Part shown: positions 39,789 through 53,246 of the stretch, piece after piece
Layout of the letters: each line of letters begins with the position of its first letter
Numbering within the stretch: position 1 is the stretch's first letter
From: Halorubrum sp. PV6
GTDB lineage: Archaea; Halobacteriota; Halobacteria; Halobacteriales; Haloferacaceae
Reading direction: 5' to 3'
DNA length: 64,000 nucleotides
NCBI RefSeq assembly: GCF_003990725.2
Contig: NZ_CP030064.1
Location: 1,240,001 to 1,304,000, forward strand
Notes under the pieces: generated by a model
Seen by the model: only the letters and a program-made list of their open reading frames with translations
What the model was told of the DNA's origin: nothing
Database searches by the model: none
Position numbers and translations under genes: made by a program

Positions 39789-39939
39789 GCAGAACGCCTT
39801 TTATACGCGAGCCGTAGGCCGCCCGGAGACGGCGGCAGTCTGGCGCCCGGAGGTCGCGGAACCGGCGGTCGCTGCAGGATAAATTCGTTGAAAGTTCATT
39901 TATTAATCATTTTATCATTGACGCGTGTTGACTTTCCCC

Positions 39940-42030
39940 ATGGTGGGGAATGACAACTTGGTCGGTCGGGTCGTCTCCGGGAGCGATCGGCCGCTAGCGG
40001 GGCGAATCGTCATCGGTGAACGACGGGACGACCGGAGCGACGCGAGCGGTCCGGTCGGCCACGGGACCACGGACGACGACGGACTGTTCGTCATCGAGGC
40101 CGACGGCGGCGTCGACGTCGAAGCGGTCTCGTTCACGGTTCGAGACCCGATGCGAGGCGGTAGCGAGGAGTCGATCCGGCGCCGCGAGCGGCCCGCGGAT
40201 GGCAGGGAGACGATTCGGCTCACCGTGAGCGAGCGCCGCGGGACGCCTCACGGGGGAACGGAACATCGCGGGATGAACGAGGCCGCGTGCACGCGCGCCG
40301 GAGCCGTCCGGAGTCACCGGTTTTACACGCAGTTCCCCGAACTCGACACGTACGACCGGAGCGAGGACCTGATCCGGACCCTCGGGGGAGCCGACGGGGA
40401 AACGGACGCCCCCGCCGCCGACGGTGCGCCGATGATGGAGTCGCCCGACGACCCGGTCGGCGATGCCGAGACGCCGGCCGCATACGGGATTTTCGGGCAG
40501 TTCGTCGATCACGACATCACCTTCGATCCGACCTCCGACATCGATCGGCGAAACGACCCCGCGGCGCTGCGCAACTTCCGGACGCCGGCGCTCGACTTAG
40601 ACTCGGTCTACCGCCACGGGAGCGAGACGGCGCCGTTCCTGTACGACCACGACAGCGACGAGGCGCACCTGATCACCGGTGAGGCGGAGGGTGCCCCGGA
40701 CCGCCCGGACGGGCTTCCGGGGACTGACTTGCAACGGAACGAGCAGGGGTTCGCGCTGATCGGCGATCCGCGGAACGACGAGACCGTCCTCGTCTCGCAG
40801 CTCCAACTCGCGTTCGTGAACTTCCACAACCGCGTCGTCGACCACCTCCGCGGACCGGGGTCGTCGCTCGTCGCGTCCGACGAGACCGTGCTCGAAGCGG
40901 CCCAGCGGCTCGTCAGATGGCACTACCAGTGGATCGTCCGCCACGACTTCCTCCCGCAGATCTGCGACGAGTACGTCCTCGACGACGTCGAACGGAACGG
41001 CCGACGGTTCTTCCTTCCGGAGGGGTCGCAGGTCGCTATCGCCGTCGAGTTCGCCGGCGCGGCCTATCGGTTCGGTCACAGCATGATCCGCGACGCGTAC
41101 GACGTGAACGACCGGTCCGGGAACGTGCCGCTGTTCCCCTCGGAGCCGAACGAGTCGCCGAACCTCCGCGGGTTCGGCCCCGTCCGCTACGAGGTGACCG
41201 TCGACTGGACCCGCCTGCTCGACACGGGCGACGGGGCGTACCAGCGGTCTCGCAAGATCGATGCGCTGCTCCCGCCGGCGCTGTTCAACCTGCCGATGGC
41301 CGGGGAGGACTCGCTCGCCGTGCGGAACCTGCTTCGGGGGGAGGCGCTAGGGCTCCCGGCCGGACAGGACGTGGCCCGCCGGATGGGGATCGACCCGATC
41401 CGCAACGAGGAGTTCGGCGAGGAGTCGGGGGTCATGCAGACCCTTCGGCGGCACGGTCGGGGGGCGGACCCCGACGCCCCGCTGTGGTACTACATCCTCG
41501 ACGAGGCGCGCTACCAGCAGGACGGCGAGCGGTTGGGGGCGGTCGGGAGCCGGATCGTTGCCGAGACGCTGATCGGGCTCGTCGAACGCAACGAGACCGC
41601 GTACCCGAACGCCGCGCCGGACGGGTGGGAGCCGTCGCTCCCCCGGCTCGTCCCCACCGGGGGGTACACGCTCGCCGACCTGACCGCGTTCGCCGAGGAG
41701 GCGCGTCCCGAGGGGCTGGTGATCGACTCGCTCGACCCCGTCGCAGCCCCTGGGGACGACCCGACCGACGAGTCGGTGACCCTTCGAAACGACGCGAACG
41801 ACCCGGTCGACCTGGACGGGTACGTCCTCGATCTCGGCGGCCAACGCGACCCGCTCCCGGCGGAAACGGTTCCGCCCGGCGCGACGCTCACGATCCGGAT
41901 TGGGGCCGGGACCGACTCCGCCGGCGAGATCCATCTCGGTCGGGAGGCCGCGGCGCTCAACGACGACGGCGACGCGGTGACGCTCTTGACGCCCGACGGC
42001 GAGGTCAGCACGCGACGGGTGTACGACTGA
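39940..42030 (+). CDS. Animal-type haem peroxidase with C-terminal lamin-tail domain
   Basis: 696 aa. Residues ~5-75 look like a small beta-sandwich (LVGRVVSGSDRPLAGRIVIGE...GHGTTDDDGLFVIEA), as in carboxypeptidase-regulatory domains. The peroxidase domain (~110-585) has GIFGQFVDHDITFDPTSD with distal H191 and VEFAGAAYRFGHSMIRDAYDVN with proximal H380, plus QLQLAFVNFHNRVVDHL and FLPQICDEYVLDDV. Residues ~600-696 (VIDSLDPVAAPGDDPTDESVTLRNDANDPVDLDGYVLDLGG) form a lamin-tail beta-sandwich. No signal peptide or Tat motif is seen. ATG at 39940 preferred to a GTG at 39925; the AT-rich promoter lies at 39896-39918. Peroxide-dependent oxidation is expected; substrate unknown. Confidence 0.88.
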   Translation: MVGNDNLVGRVVSGSDRPLAGRIVIGERRDDRSDASGPVGHGTTDDDGLFVIEADGGVDVEAVSFTVRDPMRGGSEESIRRRERPADGRETIRLTVSERRGTPHGGTEHRGMNEAACTRAGAVRSHRFYTQFPELDTYDRSEDLIRTLGGADGETDAPAADGAPMMESPDDPVGDAETPAAYGIFGQFVDHDITFDPTSDIDRRNDPAALRNFRTPALDLDSVYRHGSETAPFLYDHDSDEAHLITGEAEGAPDRPDGLPGTDLQRNEQGFALIGDPRNDETVLVSQLQLAFVNFHNRVVDHLRGPGSSLVASDETVLEAAQRLVRWHYQWIVRHDFLPQICDEYVLDDVERNGRRFFLPEGSQVAIAVEFAGAAYRFGHSMIRDAYDVNDRSGNVPLFPSEPNESPNLRGFGPVRYEVTVDWTRLLDTGDGAYQRSRKIDALLPPALFNLPMAGEDSLAVRNLLRGEALGLPAGQDVARRMGIDPIRNEEFGEESGVMQTLRRHGRGADPDAPLWYYILDEARYQQDGERLGAVGSRIVAETLIGLVERNETAYPNAAPDGWEPSLPRLVPTGGYTLADLTAFAEEARPEGLVIDSLDPVAAPGDDPTDESVTLRNDANDPVDLDGYVLDLGGQRDPLPAETVPPGATLTIRIGAGTDSAGEIHLGREAAALNDDGDAVTLLTPDGEVSTRRVYD

Positions 42031-43988: not shown

Positions 43989-45947
43989 ATGGATTACGCC
44001 GGAGTCGACGGCCAGCCGACGGGCGGGGGCGCCGCCGGCGACGACGTCGTCGAGCCACCCGACGCGTTCGACGACCGGGCCGCCGCCAGCGACGCGGACC
44101 TGTACGACGCGTTCGACGAGGAGGGACCGGACGCGTGGCGGCGGGCGGCCGACCTCCTCGACTGGGAGACCGACTACGACACCGTCCTCGACGACAGCGA
44201 CCCGCCCTTTTATAAGTGGTTTCCGGACGGACGGCTCAACGCCGCGGCCAACTGCATCGACCGCCACCTCGACGAGCGGCGGAACCAGCTCGCGATCCGC
44301 TGGTTCGGCAAGCGCGGGGAGCGCCGGTCGTACACCTACCTCGACTTACACCGCGAGGTGAACGCGCTCGCCGCCGGCCTCCGCGACCTCGGGGTCGAAG
44401 CCGACGACGTGGTGACGCTGTACCTCCCGATGGTCCCCGAGTTACCGATCGCGATGTTGGCGTGCGCCCGGATCGGCGCGCCCCACAACGTCGTCTTCGC
44501 GGGGCTGTCCGCGGAGGCGCTCGCGACGCGCATCGACGCCGCCGACTCGTCGTACCTCGTCACCTGCGACGGGTACTACCGGCGGGAGGACGCGTTCAAC
44601 CAGAAGTCGAAGGCGGACAACGCCCGGCTCCGCGCCGACGCCGACCTCTCGGCGACCGTCGTCGTCGACCGGCTCGGCGACGCGCTCGACGTGTCGCTCG
44701 GCGCCGACGAACACGCGTACGAGGCCGTCGTCGAGGCCAACGACGGGGAGACGGTCGAGCCGGTCGCGCGCGACGCCACCGACCTCCTCTTCGTCATGTA
44801 CACCTCCGGGACCACGGGGCGCCCGAAGGGCGTCGAGCACGCGACGGGCGGGTACCTCTCGCACGTCGCGTGGACGACCCGGAACGTCCTCGACGTGCGG
44901 CCCGACGACACCTACTGGTGTGCGGCCGACATCGGCTGGATCACGGGCCACTCGTACGGCGTGTACGGCCCGCTCTCGGTCGGGACCACGACCGTCCTCT
45001 ACGAGGGCTCGCCGGACTACCCGGACCGCGACCGGGTGTGGGACCTGATCGAGCGCAACGCGGTCAGCGTCTTTTATACGTCGCCGACCGCGATTCGGTC
45101 GTTCATGAAGTGGGGCGCCGAGTACCCAGACGACCACGACCTGTCCTCGATCCGGCTTCTGGGGACCGTCGGCGAGTCGATCACGCCGAAGGCGTGGCAC
45201 TGGTACCACGACCACGTCGGCGGCGGGGAGGCGCCGGTAGTCGACACGTGGTGGCAGACCGAGACGGGCGCCATCTCCCTCGCGACCCTGCCGGGAGTCA
45301 CGCCGATGAAGCCCGGAAAGGTCGGCCCGCCGTTGCCGGGTATCGACGCCCGCGTCGTCGACGAGGACGGCGAGCCAGTCGACCCCGGCGAGCCGGGGTA
45401 CCTCACGATCGCCGCCCCGTGGCCCGGAATGCTCAGGGGGCTTCGCGAGGGCGACGAGCGCTACCGCCGGGAGTACTGGCTGGAGGGCGACGACGGGTGG
45501 CGGTATCGGACCGGAGACGGCGCGACCGTCGACGAGGACGGGTACATCACGATCCTCGGGCGCGTCGACGACGTGATCAACGTCCGGACCCACCGGTTCA
45601 ACACCGCCGAGTTGGAGGCGGCCATCGTCGAGGCCGACGGCGTCACCGAAGCCGCGGTCGTCGGCGACGACGACGGTCGGATCGTCGCCTACGTCACCAC
45701 TCGCGGCGACGTCGATCCGGACGAACCGCTCCGCGAAGCGATCGGCGAGGGGCTCGTCCGGTCGGTCGGCGACGTGGCGCGGCCGGACCGGATCGTGTTC
45801 ACGCCCGACTTGCCGAAGACGCGCTCGGGGAAGATCATGCGTCGGCTGCTCGAAGACATCGCCCGCGGCGACGAGTTCGGCGACGTGAGCGCCCTGCGCA
45901 ACCCCGAGGTCGTCGGCGAGATCGAGTCGGCGGTTCGCGAGGAGTGA
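43989..45947 (+). CDS. acs: Acetyl-CoA synthetase-type acyl-CoA ligase (acs paralogue 1)
   Basis: 652 aa. ANL superfamily: YTSGTTGRPKG phosphate loop, DTWWQTETGAIS with the Trp that limits the acyl pocket, and catalytic K615 in KTRSGKIMRRL. The hinge segment differs from normal Acs: NVRTHRFNTAELE instead of NVSGHRLGTxEIE, so substrate or regulation may differ from the paralogue at 48070. Promoter candidate AAGTATACATT (~43956-43966). Separated from that paralogue by a Bat-like regulator. F-Y-K and F-Y-T are spelled with TTT TAT codons. Confidence 0.88.
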   Translation: MDYAGVDGQPTGGGAAGDDVVEPPDAFDDRAAASDADLYDAFDEEGPDAWRRAADLLDWETDYDTVLDDSDPPFYKWFPDGRLNAAANCIDRHLDERRNQLAIRWFGKRGERRSYTYLDLHREVNALAAGLRDLGVEADDVVTLYLPMVPELPIAMLACARIGAPHNVVFAGLSAEALATRIDAADSSYLVTCDGYYRREDAFNQKSKADNARLRADADLSATVVVDRLGDALDVSLGADEHAYEAVVEANDGETVEPVARDATDLLFVMYTSGTTGRPKGVEHATGGYLSHVAWTTRNVLDVRPDDTYWCAADIGWITGHSYGVYGPLSVGTTTVLYEGSPDYPDRDRVWDLIERNAVSVFYTSPTAIRSFMKWGAEYPDDHDLSSIRLLGTVGESITPKAWHWYHDHVGGGEAPVVDTWWQTETGAISLATLPGVTPMKPGKVGPPLPGIDARVVDEDGEPVDPGEPGYLTIAAPWPGMLRGLREGDERYRREYWLEGDDGWRYRTGDGATVDEDGYITILGRVDDVINVRTHRFNTAELEAAIVEADGVTEAAVVGDDDGRIVAYVTTRGDVDPDEPLREAIGEGLVRSVGDVARPDRIVFTPDLPKTRSGKIMRRLLEDIARGDEFGDVSALRNPEVVGEIESAVREE

Positions 45948-46126
45948 CGGCCGCCGATCGCTCGGGCCGACGCGAGACGCCGGGGGCGAGCGGGTGCGCG
46001 GTCGGGCTAGCGCAGTCGTTTCGCGTTTAAATCTATAGCCGAAACAGAATCCAGACAGTTTTCTCTAAAGGTCGGCCGTGAGCGCGACTCATCCGGACAC
46101 AGTCGCTCGGCACGGCACCAGAGGCT

Positions 46127-46142
46127 CGTTTCAGGCGAAACG
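46127..46142. promoter_or_regulatory. Inverted repeat upstream of the Bat-like gene
   Basis: CGTTTC-AGGC-GAAACG, 35-50 nt upstream of the ATG at 46177. The 229-bp gap after acs also holds GTTTCGCGTTTAAATC (46018-46033) and a later CCGAAAC; these could be sites for autoregulation. Confidence 0.4.
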
Positions 46143-46176
46143 CTTACTTCGGTTTCCTGTGTGAATACGAACCGAG

Positions 46177-47961
46177 ATGGGCGAGGGACTGGACGCCGAC
46201 GCGTACGACGCGCTCGTGACCGCGGCGGAGACGTACCGCGCCGCGCTCGTCGTCCGGCTCGGCGGCGAGGCGGGGCTTCGGACCGGCGAGATCACTCGCG
46301 TCGCCCCCCGAGACCTCCGAGAAACGGAGCGACACGCCGACCTGGCTCTCCTCGCGGTCCCGGCGGCAGAGCCGGGTCCCGAGAGCGGCGAGACGCCCGA
46401 GTCCGATCCGGCGGCCGCGGCGGACGGCCGCGACAGGATCGACCGCGAGACGGTCGTCCCGGCGTCGCTGGCGGCGGAGTTACGCCGGTACGCGGAGAGC
46501 GCGGACCTCGACGAGTCGGAGCCGTTCGTGGACGTGACGCCGCGCCGCGTCCAGATGATCGTCAGCGAGACGGCCTCGCGCGCGGCGTCCCGGACCGACG
46601 GGCTCGTCGACCCGGACGTGACGCCGCGAGACCTCCGGCGGACCTTCGCGCGGCGGCTCCTCGCCGACCGCGGCGTCGACGCCCACACCGTCCGCGAGGC
46701 GGGCGGCTGGGAGACGATGGCGACGCTCGACGACTACCTCGGACCGCTCGACGGCGACGCGATCGTCTCGGCGATCGCGGACAGACGGGACGACCCGGGA
46801 GATGGGGCCGCGGCGACCGCGCTCGGCGGCTTCGAGGCCCTCGCCGACGGCGACACGCGAGCGACCCCCCTCGCGGCGGTTCCCGAGGGCGTCGTCGAGT
46901 CGCACCGGTGGGCGGAGGCGTGGGTCGTCCGCGGCGCCGGGGATCGCGACCGCGCCGAGATCGCGGGGACGGCCGGCGTGGGGCGCGAGGAGCTCGCGGA
47001 CCGCGGCGTCCCGACCGACGGGCCGTGGCGAGAGGCGGTCACCAACGGGGACGCGGTCGTGAGCGAGGGGACGCCGGCGACCGCGGGCCGACCGGCGATC
47101 GCCGTCCCCGTTCGATACCGGGACGTGACACACGGCGCGCTGTGTGTCGTCGCCGGCGACGACCCGCCGGTCGGCCCGGTCTCGTCGAGCGAGCGGCGGG
47201 AACTGACGGCGCTCGGCCGGTGTCTCGGCTGGGCCGTGACCGCGGGACGCTGGCGCGACTTACTCCACTCCGACGCGGTGACCGAGGTGGAGTTTCACAC
47301 GGGGGACGACGACGCATTCCTCGCCCGCGCGAGCGCGGCGCTCGACTGCCGGATCGAGTTGGCTTCGACCGTGACGGTCGACGACGACACGTCGCGGTTT
47401 TATTTATCAGTCGAGGGCGCGCGTCCCCAGCCGCTCGCCGACGTGATCGCCGGGGCGTCCGGCGTCTCGGACCTGCGCGTCATCGAGACGCGCGAGGCCG
47501 GCTGCGACGTGTCGGTCCGCGTCACGGGCGGCTCCGCGGTGCGCACGCTCACGGAACACGGCGCGACTGTCCGGGACGCGACCGCCGACGACGGCCGGGT
47601 TCGCGTCGTCGCGCACCTCCCCGAGGGCGCCGACGTGCGGCCCGTCGCCGACGGGCTGCGGACCGCCTTCACCGGGGCGCGCCTCGCGAGCAAGCGGTCC
47701 GTCCCGCGGGAGCCGCGGAGCGAGGATTCGCTTCGGGAGGGCGTCGCCGACCGGTTCACGGACCGCCAGTGGGCCGCGCTGTCGGCCGCGTACCACGGCG
47801 GATACTTCGACTGGCCGCGGGGGAGCACGGCGGAGGAAGTCGCCGACGCCATGGGCGTCTCCTCGCCGACGTTCCACAACCACCTCCGGAAGGCACAGCG
47901 GCAGCTCCTCGACGGACTCTTTGAAGACGGGCCGCGGACTCGGCGGGCCGACCGGGACTGA
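46177..47961 (+). CDS. Bat-like HTH_10 regulator with N-terminal tyrosine-recombinase-like domain
   Basis: 594 aa. Residues ~10-190 follow the catalytic domain of tyrosine recombinases: R35 (GLRTGEI), RDLRRTFARRLL with R154, GGW at 176-178 and Y187; the H of the HxxR box is R151, so strand-exchange activity is doubtful. Residues ~215-365 look like a GAF sensor, ~375-510 like the bacterio-opsin-activator associated domain (VTEVEFHTGDDDAFL), and ~530-585 are the HTH_10 (FTDRQWAALSAAYHGGYFDWPRGSTAEEVADAMGVSSPTFHNHLRKAQ). Such proteins are transcription regulators in haloarchaea. Position between two acs genes and upstream of the acetate transporter suggests control of acetate use. Confidence 0.85.
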   Translation: MGEGLDADAYDALVTAAETYRAALVVRLGGEAGLRTGEITRVAPRDLRETERHADLALLAVPAAEPGPESGETPESDPAAAADGRDRIDRETVVPASLAAELRRYAESADLDESEPFVDVTPRRVQMIVSETASRAASRTDGLVDPDVTPRDLRRTFARRLLADRGVDAHTVREAGGWETMATLDDYLGPLDGDAIVSAIADRRDDPGDGAAATALGGFEALADGDTRATPLAAVPEGVVESHRWAEAWVVRGAGDRDRAEIAGTAGVGREELADRGVPTDGPWREAVTNGDAVVSEGTPATAGRPAIAVPVRYRDVTHGALCVVAGDDPPVGPVSSSERRELTALGRCLGWAVTAGRWRDLLHSDAVTEVEFHTGDDDAFLARASAALDCRIELASTVTVDDDTSRFYLSVEGARPQPLADVIAGASGVSDLRVIETREAGCDVSVRVTGGSAVRTLTEHGATVRDATADDGRVRVVAHLPEGADVRPVADGLRTAFTGARLASKRSVPREPRSEDSLREGVADRFTDRQWAALSAAYHGGYFDWPRGSTAEEVADAMGVSSPTFHNHLRKAQRQLLDGLFEDGPRTRRADRD

Positions 47962-48004: not shown

Positions 48005-48020
48005 TATCACGATTTTTCGT
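48005..48020. promoter_or_regulatory. TATCACGA-TTTT-TCGT motif upstream of acs2
   Basis: Contains the inverted repeat ACGA-TTTT-TCGT (48009-48020), ~14 bp upstream of the TATA box. A close match precedes the transporter operon at 50129-50145. Confidence 0.45.
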
Positions 48021-48033
48021 ATTTAGCGTCGCC

Positions 48034-48041
48034 GTTTATAT
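48034..48041 (+). promoter_or_regulatory. TATA box of acs2
   Basis: GTTTATAT, ~29-36 nt upstream of the ATG at 48070; transcription would start close to the start codon. Confidence 0.5.
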
Positions 48042-48069
48042 GGTGAGATCGGTTGGGTACGTCCGTACC

Positions 48070-50064
48070 ATGACAGAGGGCGAAGGTCAACTGGAAGCGA
48101 GACTCGCAGAGCAGGAGGTGTTCGAGCCGCCGGAGTCGTTCGTCGAACAGGCGAACGTCTCGGATCCCGACGTGTACGACGAGTTCGAGGAGAACTGGCC
48201 GGAGTGTTGGGAGGGGGCCGCCGACCTGCTCGACTGGGAAACCGACTACGATCAGGTGCTCGACGACAGCAACCCGCCCTTCTACGAATGGTTCACGGGC
48301 GGCGAACTGAACGCGTCGGCCAACTGCCTCGACCGACACCTCGACGAGCGCGGCGACGAGGTCGCGATCGAGTGGGTCGGCGAGCCCGTCGACGAGGACG
48401 ACCGCTCGTACACCTATGAAGAACTCCATCGCGAGGTAAACGAGTTCGCGGCCGCGCTCCGGGAGCAGGGCGTCGAGGAAGACGACGTGGTGACGATGTA
48501 CATGCCGATGATCCCGGAGCTGCCGATCGCGATGCTGGCGTGTGCGCGGATCGGCGCGCCACACAGCGTCGTCTTCGCCGGGTTCTCGGCCGACGCGCTC
48601 GCGACGCGGATGAACAGCGCGGACTCCGAGTACCTGGTCACCTGCGACGGCTACTACCGCCGCGGCGACCCGCTCGACCACCTCGACAAGGCGAACGAGG
48701 GGCTCGCGGGCGTCGACCACGAGACGACGACGGTCGTCGTCGATCGACTCGGGCCGAACGACGACGGCTTCGGTCACGACCTCGGCGACGACCAGCTTGA
48801 CTACGACGACCTCGTCGCGGACCACGAGGGCGCCGAAGTCGAGCCGGTGACCCGCGACGCCGAGGACATGCTGTTCTTAATGTACACCTCGGGGACGACG
48901 GGGAAGCCGAAGGGCGTGAAACACACGACCGGCGGCTACCTCTCGTGGGTGTCGTGGACCTCGCAGTCGGTCCTCGACATCAAGCCGGATGACACGTACT
49001 TCTGTTCGGCCGACATCGGCTGGATCACCGGCCACTCGTACATCGTCTACGGGCCACTCTCGCTCGGGACGACGACGATGATGTACGAGGGGACCCCGGA
49101 CCACCCCGAGCGCGACCGGCTCTGGGAGATCGTCGAGGAGTACGAGGCGACCCAGCTGTACACCGCGCCGACCGCGATCCGCGCGTTCATGAAGTGGGGC
49201 GCGGAGTACCCCGACGCGCACGACCTCTCGTCGCTGCGGCTGCTCGGGACGGTCGGCGAGCCGATCAACCCCCGCGCGTGGAAGTGGTACTACCAGCACA
49301 TCGGCGACGAGGAGTGTCCCATCGTCGACACCTGGTGGCAGACGGAGACCGGCGGCATGATGGTCACGACGCTACCGGGCGTCAAAGACATGAAACCGGG
49401 AGCGGCCGGACCGCCGCTTCCGGGCCTCGACGTACAGATTCTGGACACGCTCGGCGATGAAGTAGAGCCCGGAAAGGCGGGCTACCTGACGGTACAGAAG
49501 CCGTGGCCCGGCATGCTGCGGACGCTGTACAACAACGACGAGCGCTACATCGACGAGTACTGGGCCGAGTACTCGGACACCGACAGCGACGACCCCGAAG
49601 ACTGGGTGTACTTCCCGGAGGACGGGGCGAAGATCGACGAGGACGGCTACATCACCGTGCTCGGTCGCGTCGACGACGTGCTCAACGTCTCCGGCCACCG
49701 GCTCGGGACGATGGAAATCGAGTCCGCCATCGTCGGCGTCGAGGGCGTCGCGGAGGCCGCGGTCGTTGGTGGGGACCACGACATCAAAGGCGAGGCCGTC
49801 TACGCGTACGTGACCACCGAAGACGGCTACGAGGGCAACGACGAACTCCGCGACGCGATCGTCGCCGGCGTCGAGGACGCCATCGGGCCGATCGCCCGAC
49901 CGGAGCAGGTCGTGTTCACGCCGGACCTGCCGAAGACGCGGTCCGGGAAGATCATGCGGCGTCTGCTCGAGAACATCGCCGACGGGAAGGAGCTGGGTAA
50001 CACCAGCACCCTCCGGAACCCGGAGATCGTCGAAGAGATCCAGCAGAAGGCGGCGGGCGAGTAG
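48070..50064 (+). CDS. acs: Acetyl-CoA synthetase (acs paralogue 2)
   Basis: Activates acetate to acetyl-CoA through acetyl-AMP. 664 aa. All standard motifs present: YTSGTTGKPKG, WITGHSYIVYGPL, DTWWQTETGGMM, DDVLNVSGHRLGTMEIESA (hinge and C-terminal start) and catalytic K627 in KTRSGKIMRRLLE. Start MTEGEGQ at 48070 was chosen because it follows the TATA box at leaderless distance; the upstream GTG frame crosses the promoter. Same strand as the Bat-like regulator before it and the transporter operon after it. Confidence 0.95.
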   Translation: MTEGEGQLEARLAEQEVFEPPESFVEQANVSDPDVYDEFEENWPECWEGAADLLDWETDYDQVLDDSNPPFYEWFTGGELNASANCLDRHLDERGDEVAIEWVGEPVDEDDRSYTYEELHREVNEFAAALREQGVEEDDVVTMYMPMIPELPIAMLACARIGAPHSVVFAGFSADALATRMNSADSEYLVTCDGYYRRGDPLDHLDKANEGLAGVDHETTTVVVDRLGPNDDGFGHDLGDDQLDYDDLVADHEGAEVEPVTRDAEDMLFLMYTSGTTGKPKGVKHTTGGYLSWVSWTSQSVLDIKPDDTYFCSADIGWITGHSYIVYGPLSLGTTTMMYEGTPDHPERDRLWEIVEEYEATQLYTAPTAIRAFMKWGAEYPDAHDLSSLRLLGTVGEPINPRAWKWYYQHIGDEECPIVDTWWQTETGGMMVTTLPGVKDMKPGAAGPPLPGLDVQILDTLGDEVEPGKAGYLTVQKPWPGMLRTLYNNDERYIDEYWAEYSDTDSDDPEDWVYFPEDGAKIDEDGYITVLGRVDDVLNVSGHRLGTMEIESAIVGVEGVAEAAVVGGDHDIKGEAVYAYVTTEDGYEGNDELRDAIVAGVEDAIGPIARPEQVVFTPDLPKTRSGKIMRRLLENIADGKELGNTSTLRNPEIVEEIQQKAAGE

Positions 50065-50128
50065 CCGCGCGACGGCGCCGTTTTCGAGACACGAAACGAA
50101 AGACGGCGCGCACGACACCGCGATTAAA

Positions 50129-50145
50129 TATCACGATAAAATCGT
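50129..50145. promoter_or_regulatory. TATCACGAT-AAA-ATCGT motif upstream of the transporter operon
   Basis: TATCACGAT followed by AAA and ATCGT; ACGAT-AAA-ATCGT is a perfect inverted repeat (50133-50145). It overlaps the AT-rich ATTAAATA promoter region (50123-50130), 34 nt before the ATG. Shares TATCACGA and TCGT with 48005-48020. Confidence 0.45.
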
Positions 50146-50178: not shown

Positions 50179-50712
50179 ATGACAGATAATCGCTCACAAC
50201 AAGACGACGCGGTTACCGACGGTGGTCGCGCAGCGGACGACGCGGTCACCGATGGGGGTCGCGCAGCGGACGACGCGGCCACCGATGGGGGACGCGCAGC
50301 GAACGACGCGGCCACCGACGGCGGCGTCACCGCGAGCGCGGCACAGAAGCACAGCAACACCGACTACCTCAGCGAGGAGGTGAACCTGCTGAAACCGAGC
50401 ACCGCGTACATGCGGGATCACCTCAGAATCGTCTGGACCGGGTTCATCGTCTGGGCGGTGATCGTCTTCGGCCCGGTCACGATGACGATGCTCGCGCCGG
50501 GCACGATGACGACGACGATGCCGGTACTCGGGTTCCCCTGGCACTACTTCCTCGTCGCCTTCGGTGCGCCGACGGGCGCGCTGATCTTGGCGGCCGTCTA
50601 CGCCCGCCAGCGCGACAAGTTGGACGACAAGTACGGGATCGACCACAGCACCGCCGTTGAGCCGGACGACTCCGGTGCCACAGCCGCAACCGACGGAGGG
50701 CAGCAGGAATGA
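50179..50712 (+). CDS. DUF4212-type small subunit of a sodium:solute symporter
   Basis: 177 aa. After a repetitive acidic N-terminus (~1-55) the conserved core begins: YLSEEVNLLKPSTAYMRDHLRIVWTGFIVWAVIVFGP, with two membrane helices (~80-98 and ~115-140) and the C-terminal Y-A-R-Q-R-D-K-L-D. DUF4212 proteins pair with VC_2705-type symporters. The N-terminus holds 3.7 copies of an 11-residue repeat (DDAVTDGGRAA). Its stop overlaps the symporter start (ATGA). Confidence 0.88.
   Translation: MTDNRSQQDDAVTDGGRAADDAVTDGGRAADDAATDGGRAANDAATDGGVTASAAQKHSNTDYLSEEVNLLKPSTAYMRDHLRIVWTGFIVWAVIVFGPVTMTMLAPGTMTTTMPVLGFPWHYFLVAFGAPTGALILAAVYARQRDKLDDKYGIDHSTAVEPDDSGATAATDGGQQE
50203..50325 (+). repeat. 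In-frame 33-bp coding minisatellite
   Basis: Units at 50203-50235, 50236-50268, 50269-50301 and a partial 50302-50325, each coding DDA(V/A)TDGGRAA. Unit length keeps the frame, so copy number can change without breaking the gene. Confidence 0.9.
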
Positions 50713-52424
50713 CGGTCCCGCTGCAAGCGGAAGCGCTCGACATTTCCTTTAAACTCCTCCCGGCGATCATCGTCTTCCTGATGATGGCCTCGTTCCTGGT
50801 CATCGGCTTCGTGTTCAAGGTGGCGGACACCGAGGGCATGTGGGTCGCCGGCCGGGGAATCGGCAACATCGAGAACGGGATGGCCATCGGCGCCAACTGG
50901 ATGTCCGCCGCCTCGTACCTCGGGCTCGCGGGGCTGGTCGCGCTCGCCGGCTTCTACGGGCTGGCGTTCATCGTCGGCTGGACGACCGGCTACTTCGTCC
51001 TGCTCATCTTCCTCGCGGCCCAGATGCGCCGGTTCGGGAAGTACACCGCGCCGGACTTCGTCGCGGACCGATTCAACTCCCCGATGGCGCGCGCGCTGGC
51101 CGCGTTCACCACGCTGCTCATCGCGTACGTCTACTCCGTGGGCCAGGCCCGCGGGATGGGGCTGGTCGGGCAGTACGTGTTCGGGCTCGACATCATCCCG
51201 ATGATCATCGTGATGATGACCATCACCGTCGGCTACCTCGCGCTCTCCGGCATGCTGGGCGCGACGAAGAACATGGCCGTCCAGTACGTGATCCTCATCG
51301 TCGCGTTCCTCGCCGGCGTCTACGTCGTCGGCTTCTCGCAGGGGTACTCGACCGTGCTCCCGCAGATCGAGTACGGCGCCCTGTTCAGCGAACTCGGCCG
51401 CCAGTTCAGCGAGCCGTTCATCGGCGGCAACAGCTACTACCTGTGGGTCGCCACGGCGTTCTCGCTCATCGTCGGGACGTGCGGTCTCCCGCACGTCCTG
51501 GTCCGGTTCTACACGGTCGAAAGCGAGCGGACCGCCCGCTGGTCCACCGTGTGGGGGCTGTTCTTCATCCTCCTCCTGTACTGGGCCGCGCCCGCGATGG
51601 CGGCGTTCGGCGTCGACCTCTTCGCCGCCGTGAACGGGATCTCCTCTGAAGCGGTGTTCAGCGGCGAGCAGGCGATGTCCGGCGCGGAGGGCGACGTCAT
51701 CGTCGTGCTGGCCGCGCAGTTCGCCCAGCTGCCGACCTGGTTCGTCGGGTTGGTCGCCGCCGGCGCGATGGCGGCCGCGATCGCGACGACGGCGGGGCTG
51801 TTCATCACCGCCTCCTCCGCCGTCGCCCACGACATCTACGCCGAACTCATCAACCCCGACGCGACCCAGCGGCAGCAGGTGCTCATCGGTCGAGCGACCA
51901 TCATCGGCATCGGCGCGCTCGTCACGGTGACCGCGTTCAACCCGCCGGCGCTCATCGGCGAGCTCGTCGCCTACGCGTTCTCGCTCGCGGGCACCGTCCT
52001 GTTCCCGATGTTCTTCCTCGGCCTGTGGTGGGAGAACACCAACCGGCAGGGGGCCTTAGCGGGGATGACCGTCGGCCTGCTGCTGTGGTTCACCTCGATC
52101 ATCAACAGCGTCCTGCCGGCCTACGTCGGCTTCCTCGCCGACATCGCCGGTGGCTCCGGACAGGCGCTCATCCCGATCTACGCCCAGTACGTCCCGCCGA
52201 TCGGCGCTGCCCTGATCGGGACGCCGCTCGTGTTCCTCGTCACCATCGCCGTCTCGATGGCGACGCCGGAACCCCCACTGGAGACCAAGCGGATGGTGCG
52301 CCAGTGTCACAGCCCCGAGCCGATGGGTCAACAGCAGAGCGCGGAAGACGTCGTCGCCGACGGCGGCGAGGAGATGGCGGCCGACGGCGGCACCACCGCT
52401 GACGAGACGGACACGGAGGCGTAA
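50709..52424 (+). CDS. Sodium:solute symporter, VC_2705/ActP-like
   Basis: 571 aa with about 13 hydrophobic helices. Seen: MWVAGRGIGNIENGMAIGANWMSAASYLGLAGLVALAGFYG, the SSS-family core with its sodium-site helix, TAPDFVADRFNSP, and AVQYVILIVAFLAGVYVVGFSQGY. The tail after residue ~525 is cytoplasmic and acidic with V-A-D-G-G / A-A-D-G-G segments like those in its partner subunit. With DUF4212, UspA and acs2 next to it, acetate or another short carboxylate is the likely substrate. Confidence 0.9.
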   Translation: MTVPLQAEALDISFKLLPAIIVFLMMASFLVIGFVFKVADTEGMWVAGRGIGNIENGMAIGANWMSAASYLGLAGLVALAGFYGLAFIVGWTTGYFVLLIFLAAQMRRFGKYTAPDFVADRFNSPMARALAAFTTLLIAYVYSVGQARGMGLVGQYVFGLDIIPMIIVMMTITVGYLALSGMLGATKNMAVQYVILIVAFLAGVYVVGFSQGYSTVLPQIEYGALFSELGRQFSEPFIGGNSYYLWVATAFSLIVGTCGLPHVLVRFYTVESERTARWSTVWGLFFILLLYWAAPAMAAFGVDLFAAVNGISSEAVFSGEQAMSGAEGDVIVVLAAQFAQLPTWFVGLVAAGAMAAAIATTAGLFITASSAVAHDIYAELINPDATQRQQVLIGRATIIGIGALVTVTAFNPPALIGELVAYAFSLAGTVLFPMFFLGLWWENTNRQGALAGMTVGLLLWFTSIINSVLPAYVGFLADIAGGSGQALIPIYAQYVPPIGAALIGTPLVFLVTIAVSMATPEPPLETKRMVRQCHSPEPMGQQQSAEDVVADGGEEMAADGGTTADETDTEA

Positions 52425-52427
52425 TCC

Positions 52428-52886
52428 ATGTACGAACGAATCCTCGTCCCCACCGACGGAAGCGACGTCGCAGAGGCCGCCGTCGACCACGCGCTCGATC
52501 TGGCCGAGAAGTACGACGCGGAGGTGCACGCCCTGTACGTCGTCGACATCGACTCCGTGAACCTCAGCCTCGGCACCGAGCAGGTCGACCGGCTCAAACA
52601 GGGTCGGTTCGACGAGATGGAGGAGCTGAAAGAACAGGCGGACGCGGCGACCGGCGTCGTGGCCGAGCGCGCCGACGAACGCGGCGTCTCGGTCGTCGAG
52701 CACGTCGCGGGCGGTCGCCCGCACAAGCTGATACGCAACTACGCCGACAACCACGACATCGACCTCATCGTGATGGGGAGCCACGGGCGCGCCGGCATCC
52801 GCCGCGCGCTCCTCGGCAGCGTCACCGAGCGCACGCTGCGCTCGACGCACGTGCCGATCCTCGTGGTCGACTACGAGGGAGAGTAA
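52428..52886 (+). CDS. UspA-family universal stress protein
   Basis: 152 aa. ILVPTDGSDVAEAAVDHALDLA at the start and the ATP-binding motif VMGSHGRAGIRRALLGSVTERTLRSTHVPILVV (G-2x-G-9x-G-S/T) near the end. Starts 3 bp after the symporter stop, so it is in the same operon; UspA proteins commonly accompany haloarchaeal SSS transporters and may modulate them. Confidence 0.93.
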   Translation: MYERILVPTDGSDVAEAAVDHALDLAEKYDAEVHALYVVDIDSVNLSLGTEQVDRLKQGRFDEMEELKEQADAATGVVAERADERGVSVVEHVAGGRPHKLIRNYADNHDIDLIVMGSHGRAGIRRALLGSVTERTLRSTHVPILVVDYEGE

Positions 52887-52982: not shown

Positions 52983-53246
52983 ATGCCCGACACCGACACC
53001 ACCCAGCCAGACGACTCGGAGCCCGAGACCGTCGTCGACCGTCTCCGCAGCCACGTCAGCGAGAACCGCGGCGGGATGTTCTACGACCTCGTGTTCGCGC
53101 TCGTCTGGGTGACGAGCGTCTCGCTGCTGTACAACGGGCTGTTCACCGGCGCCCCGCAGTGGGTGTTGTACATGTTCATGCTCGCCGGGATCCCCGCGTA
53201 CTACGGCTTCTTCCTGTCGCTGTCGATGGCGAAAGAACAGGCCTGA
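52983..53246 (+). CDS. Small two-helix membrane protein
   Basis: 87 aa. Acidic N-terminus (~1-28), then FYDLVFALVWVTSVSLLYNGLF and VLYMFMLAGIPAYYGFFLSLSMAKE as two helices. It could be an accessory to the transporter operon (96 bp downstream of uspA, same strand) but this is only position. Family not recognised. Confidence 0.65.
   Translation: MPDTDTTQPDDSEPETVVDRLRSHVSENRGGMFYDLVFALVWVTSVSLLYNGLFTGAPQWVLYMFMLAGIPAYYGFFLSLSMAKEQA

Follow-up and report, generated by a model that had tools for sequence, protein, structure and literature searches.

The regulator gene lies at 46177..47961 on the forward strand of the window, the 64,000-nucleotide stretch of Halorubrum sp. PV6 DNA that was analysed, and encodes a 594-residue protein with integrase, GAF, BAT and HTH_10 domains (open reading frame, Pfam and predicted model). 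It is preceded by acs1 (43989..45947, +) and followed by acs2 (48070..50064, +), both coding for AMP-forming acetyl-CoA synthetases and corresponding by position to the Haloferax acs8 and acs7 orthologues, respectively. Downstream of acs2 on the same strand are genes for a DUF4212 protein, the small subunit of a sodium/substrate symporter (50179..50712), a VC_2705-type solute symporter of the acetate transporter type (50709..52424) and a universal stress protein, UspA (52428..52886). A family scan assigned both flanking genes to TIGR02188 (acetate-CoA ligase) and the two transporter genes to TIGR03647 and TIGR03648, confirming the predicted location of the regulator between two acs genes and upstream of an acetate-type transporter operon. 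Between acs2 and the DUF4212 gene (50079-50110) are an imperfect hairpin (GCCGTTTTCGAGACACGAAACGAAAGACGGC) and then an AT-rich, TATA-like stretch, which could be an attenuator or an internal promoter. A 71-residue, membrane-protein-like small protein is encoded 3' of the cassette (53028-53240, +); in Haloferax, Haladaptatus, Halococcus and Halocatena a relative adjoins UspA or the symporter, and relatives were seen in 115 of the fetched loci. A 701-residue open reading frame at 39925-42030 looks by eye like a haem peroxidase of the animal type whose C-terminal part resembles a lamin tail.

Comparison of the regulator with Pfam identified Phage_integrase (PF00589; E = 9 × 10−8 over residues 5-188, above the gathering score), BAT (PF15915; E = 3 × 10−42 over residues 366-520, 47272..47736) and HTH_10 (PF04967; E = 4 × 10−20 over residues 527-578, 47755..47910), together with a match to GAF_2 that falls under its gathering score (PF13185; E = 2 × 10−4 over residues 239-347). 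An AlphaFold2 model, calculated from an alignment of 39 relatives with the plasmid rows left out, has a mean pLDDT of 85, with values above 90 across most of the integrase domain. In this model, residues 1-204 (46177..46788) superimpose on the catalytic domain of XerA (4a8e; Z = 18.0, r.m.s.d. 2.8 over 159 residues), indicating a tyrosine-recombinase catalytic-domain fold, and residues 225-364 (about 46849..47268) superimpose on GAF-B of DevS (Z = 15.9). Since these matches support the two weaker Pfam domains, the fusion of integrase-like, GAF, Bat-associated and HTH_10 domains put forward in the original prediction is confirmed, and the C-terminal half combines the GAF sensor domain, BAT and HTH_10 of Bat-type regulators. 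Relatives in family f4 carry an additional PAS domain.

Gene order was inspected in 34 loci from Halorubrum and a few others, in about 30 short loci of the same genus and in 100 distant loci. The order acs-regulator-acs-DUF4212-symporter-UspA on one strand recurs in Halorubrum and in about 100 distant loci from 11 families. The gene directly 5' of the regulator is acs except in two Haladaptatus loci (L041 and L042, which are C-terminal-only matches) and on one short contig (L144). The second acs, DUF4212, symporter and UspA genes come next on the same strand wherever the contig extends far enough, with few exceptions (L081 lacks acs2; L077, L105, L128 and L167 lack an adjacent transporter). 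Five plasmid-borne copies (two from Haloferax and one each from Haladaptatus, Halococcus and Halocatena) keep the acs-regulator-acs-DUF4212-symporter core; UspA is annotated only in the two from Haloferax. Within the class, a recombinase-domain profile gave matches (E ≤ 1 × 10−22) in 305 of 391 genomes and 71 of 86 genera, counts that include some stand-alone relatives. The predicted order is thus conserved rather than scattered, relatives of the regulator being found beside acs genes in the distant loci and in Halorubrum alike, and since full-length relatives keep this order throughout the class, neither the reading frame nor its context is due to chance. A frameshift or a sequencing error interrupts the regulator's frame in L036 and L090 (H. 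kocurii, G354) and in L177 (G319), where the rest of the cassette is intact.

Twenty genomes without the regulator were compared. Thirteen have no TIGR03648 match and seven retain the symporter, accompanied by DUF4212 and a universal stress protein; six of these seven have acs2 without the acs1-regulator pair. As the transporter operon is kept in these seven genomes, the regulator is not indispensable for it. In four of the regulator-less loci with an acs2 operon (L195, L197, L198 and L199) a fragment of an HTH_10 protein is encoded 2-3 kb upstream of acs2, and another regulator may have taken over there.

The recombinase domain of the window copy retains Arg35, Arg154, Trp178 and Tyr187, and an arginine (Arg151) occupies the position of the HxxR histidine, exactly as had been read from the sequence at the outset. 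The description of the domain as decayed holds for the whole family: the histidine is kept in six of 130 copies, the catalytic tyrosine in 93 of 129, about a quarter having replaced it, and the first arginine of the catalytic set in 117 of 130, so that the complete R-H-R-W-Y set of a functional tyrosine recombinase is found in only six of 130 copies. Arg90, Arg123, Arg124, Met127, Leu153 and Arg154, in contrast, are invariant in all 130 copies; the catalytic tyrosine and histidine vary whereas noncatalytic arginines do not. Helix 122-139 of the model has Arg123 and Arg124 at its start, and the helix of Cre that probably corresponds to it bears an arginine in contact with a base. A stand-alone integrase encoded elsewhere in the same genome (L003/L203; G000:C1:1363937, outside the window) consists of the catalytic domain only (201 residues), is about 35% identical to the N-terminal domain of the regulator and has an intact R-H-R-W-Y set, with Ser, Gly and Ala at positions 123, 124 and 127; a protein of this type is a likely ancestor of the N-terminal domain. 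On the basis of these residue patterns, the recombinase domain appears to have lost DNA cutting and may well have retained specific DNA reading.

The gap between acs1 and the regulator contains, in nearly every locus, two copies of the palindrome TTTCG-N16-CGAAA (the spacer is 15 in f4 and some others). In the window, the upstream copy, candidate operator 1 (TTTCGCGTTTAAATCTATAGCCGAAA; 46019..46044, no strand), is exact and the downstream copy, candidate operator 2 (CTTCGGTTTCCTGTGTGAATACGAAC; 46147..46172, no strand), matches eight of the ten letters; the two are 128 bp apart and operator 2 ends 4 nt before the start codon of the regulator. When both copies are required, 128 of 130 loci match at least 16 of 20 letters and 127 match at least 17, compared with 12.2 and 2.4 loci, respectively, in dinucleotide shuffles. 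The motif was initially spotted by eye in part of the tested loci; loci L120-L179, fetched afterwards, largely have the same motif save for f4 and its spacer-15 relatives. The first 79 loci contain 140 sites that match at least nine of ten letters, against 2.85 expected, a spacer of 16 being prominent. The density of palindromes is 6.7 per kb in the 250 bp before the regulator and 0.03 per kb in the remainder of the cassette, a more than 200-fold difference. The spacer length (15 or 16) follows the protein tree, with seven changes compared with 35 in shuffles, a match that is explained by shared descent alone. Only three exact TTTCG-N16-CGAAA sequences occur in the whole genome. Besides operator 1, one lies in GC-rich, coding-looking sequence and the other (L202:3209-3234; G000:C1:1981708), possibly there by chance, is a single copy that precedes a DmsR-like HTH_10 gene by about 250 bp.

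The downstream copy stops 1-8 nt short of the start codon in nearly all loci and thus overlaps the core promoter of the regulator. The distances between the copies are mostly about 77, 96, 107, 117, 128, 138 and 149 bp. For the 38 distinct distances the Rayleigh resultant is largest with a 10.6-bp period (R = 0.48, p = 1.8 × 10−4, uncorrected for the scan over periods); taking one distance per genus gives a smaller p, with genera that are not independent of each other. Distances of 77-78 bp are out of phase with the others by roughly a third of a turn.

The geometry of these sites is that of recombinase sites and, together with the six copies that have a full R-H-R-W-Y set, would suit a regulator that is still an active recombinase, with the twin palindromes serving as the crossover points of a genetic switch. 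Crossover requires matching centres; within a locus, however, the two sites are 35% identical over their central 5-6 bp, against 31% for random pairs, which argues against their use as crossover sites, and the catalytic tyrosine is replaced in about a quarter of the copies and the histidine in 95%. Recombinase activity and promoter inversion were therefore rejected on the lost residues and the unmatched centres, and we regard this explanation as extremely improbable.

A second conserved element was found at the acs2 promoter. An unsupervised motif search of 102 regions upstream of acs2 returned TTtGnA(C/T)An(C/T)TAG followed after 8-9 bp by TTTA, about 30-35 nt before the ATG in essentially all regions (L077 is a misfit). 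In the window this corresponds to the box TTTTCGTATTTAG (48014..48026, +) and the TATA box TTTATATG (48035..48042, +). The window's box occurs once in the genome even with one mismatch allowed. Among 12 genomes searched with the general pattern, acs2 was the only match in seven, one of the genomes gave one extra match, and the boxes of the other five were missed because they deviate from the pattern. The box is absent from all six acs2 promoters of regulator-less genomes; as five of the six come from one genus, this absence is supportive rather than decisive. The near-palindrome GGTACG-TC-CGTACC, which immediately precedes acs2 in the window, is not conserved across Halorubrum and was discarded. 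A global regulon was likewise rejected, the palindrome and box searches of the regulator's own genome having given essentially no further sites. Of the three regions originally proposed for binding of the regulator, 46018-46142 and 48005-48020 coincide with the conserved elements at 46019-46044 and 48014-48026, and no comparable element has been shown for 50129-50145.

The palindrome and the acs2 box are unlike in both sequence and symmetry. This difference bears on the alternative that HTH_10, dimerized through the GAF and BAT domains, reads the palindromes as well as the box and that the recombinase domain is a dimerization or structural module. Bat-type regulators are established to bind DNA through HTH_10, and the recognition helix of this domain is, like the arginines of the recombinase domain, family-specific and invariant among the regulators. 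However, a single reader would have to recognize two dissimilar elements, and the invariance of Arg123 and Arg124, which are missing from the catalytically complete stand-alone relative, would be odd in a scaffold; this alternative is considered unlikely. Less likely still is a regulator whose control is confined to its own gene, and perhaps acs1, with another factor reading the box and running the acs2 operon. The clustering of palindromes at the regulator's own promoter and the persistence of the acs2 operon in genomes without the regulator, some with HTH_10 homologues nearby, would fit such an arrangement, but the regulator adjoins the acs2 operon throughout the class, and the box accompanies it while being missing from the six promoters without it.

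The link to acetate comes from gene order and from published work on Haloferax. In Haloferax volcanii, acs7-HVO_A0155-ssf-uspA28 is transcribed as one 4.6-kb transcript on acetate that is undetected on glucose or casamino acids (PMC7746861); the regulator gene lies outside this transcript. The acs8 gene is HVO_A0158 (PMC7746861), leaving one locus number, HVO_A0157, between it and the acs7 operon. Because the regulator is located between the orthologous acs genes in H. alexandrinus and H. lucentense, it should be HVO_A0157 in H. volcanii; the report on this organism (PMC7746861) mentions neither a gene between acs7 and acs8 nor any regulator. In H. mediterranei grown on acetate, HFX_5129 and HFX_5131 are upregulated 3.5-fold and 3.1-fold, respectively, and the gene between them is unmentioned in the accessible part of that paper (PMC11784441). 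Neither HVO_A0157 nor HFX_5130 is named in any paper of the literature searched, which covered few subscription papers. The acs1 gene stays beside the regulator throughout, though its Haloferax counterpart ACS8 has been reported as uninvolved in acetate activation (PMC7746861). The original statement that no acetate regulator of this type had been described stands in part: the architecture was already listed in 2021 as integrase family fam30-04 in a review by Badel et al. on the tyrosine recombinases of archaea (PMC8371274), without a function as far as its accessible text goes, while the acetate role, the class-wide gene order, the catalytic decay and both cis-elements appear to be undescribed in the literature covered. 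Control of acetate genes by the regulator is suggested by its position and by the published finding that acetate induces the orthologous operon in Haloferax (PMC7746861).

Taken together, these sequence comparisons make it likely that the protein is a dedicated, local and self-controlling regulator of acetate uptake and activation, in which a dead recombinase domain reads the palindromes in its own promoter and the BAT/HTH_10 half acts at the acs2 box. The recombinase domain would have lost cutting and been kept as a DNA reader, and the regulator, as a dimer, would bind the two palindromes of its own promoter region that resemble recombination sites. Since the nearer palindrome spans the core promoter up to the start codon, binding at operator 2 would limit synthesis of the regulator (self-repression), and the helical phasing of the pair could reflect cooperative binding or a small DNA loop. 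The GAF domain, a plausible sensor, would take in a metabolic signal, aided by PAS in the f4 relatives; the BAT/HTH_10 half, acting at the box directly 5' of the acs2 TATA box, would turn on acs2-DUF4212-symporter-uspA, positive control of this operon being more likely than negative control. We infer the assignment of the palindromes to the integrase domain and of the box to HTH_10 from conservation and geometry. A more specific version, offered tentatively and with some doubt, is that the catalytically dead recombinase pairs the two operators uncut and so acts as a transcription factor, looping its own promoter in a frozen synapse until freed by the metabolic signal borne by the GAF domain.

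In haloarchaeal carbon metabolism the use of acetate is a central decision, and none of the papers found on the acetate genes of Haloferax names a regulator; a class-wide candidate can now be named together with exact predicted DNA targets. If the recombinase domain does read the palindromes, an enzyme of mobile elements would have been domesticated into a metabolic transcription factor, with two-site pairing possibly kept and cutting lost.

The closest described architecture is that of fam30-04 (PMC8371274), which combines Phage_integrase, BAT and HTH_10 in one chain, as the regulator does, with GAF_2 in some members; this likeness is one of domain architecture. In the accessible part of that review, fam30-04 is an integrase family by clustering only, with no function, decay, context or DNA sites given. 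The acetate-induced operon of H. volcanii (PMC7746861) is the orthologue of the acs2 operon. The Bat (bacterio-opsin activator) family resembles the C-terminal half (GAF-BAT-HTH_10) and likewise uses a regulatory promoter element 5' of the controlled genes (the Bat UAS; PMC1502140, PMC1447603), the element here being a candidate; the regulator differs from this family in its decayed recombinase domain, its acetate locus and the twin palindromes of its own promoter. XerA and Cre share the fold of the catalytic domain and a palindromic site made of two arms and a short centre. Unlike these enzymes, however, the regulator lacks an N-terminal DNA-clamp domain, most of its members lack the catalytic histidine and many the tyrosine, and its recombinase domain is fused to sensor and HTH domains.
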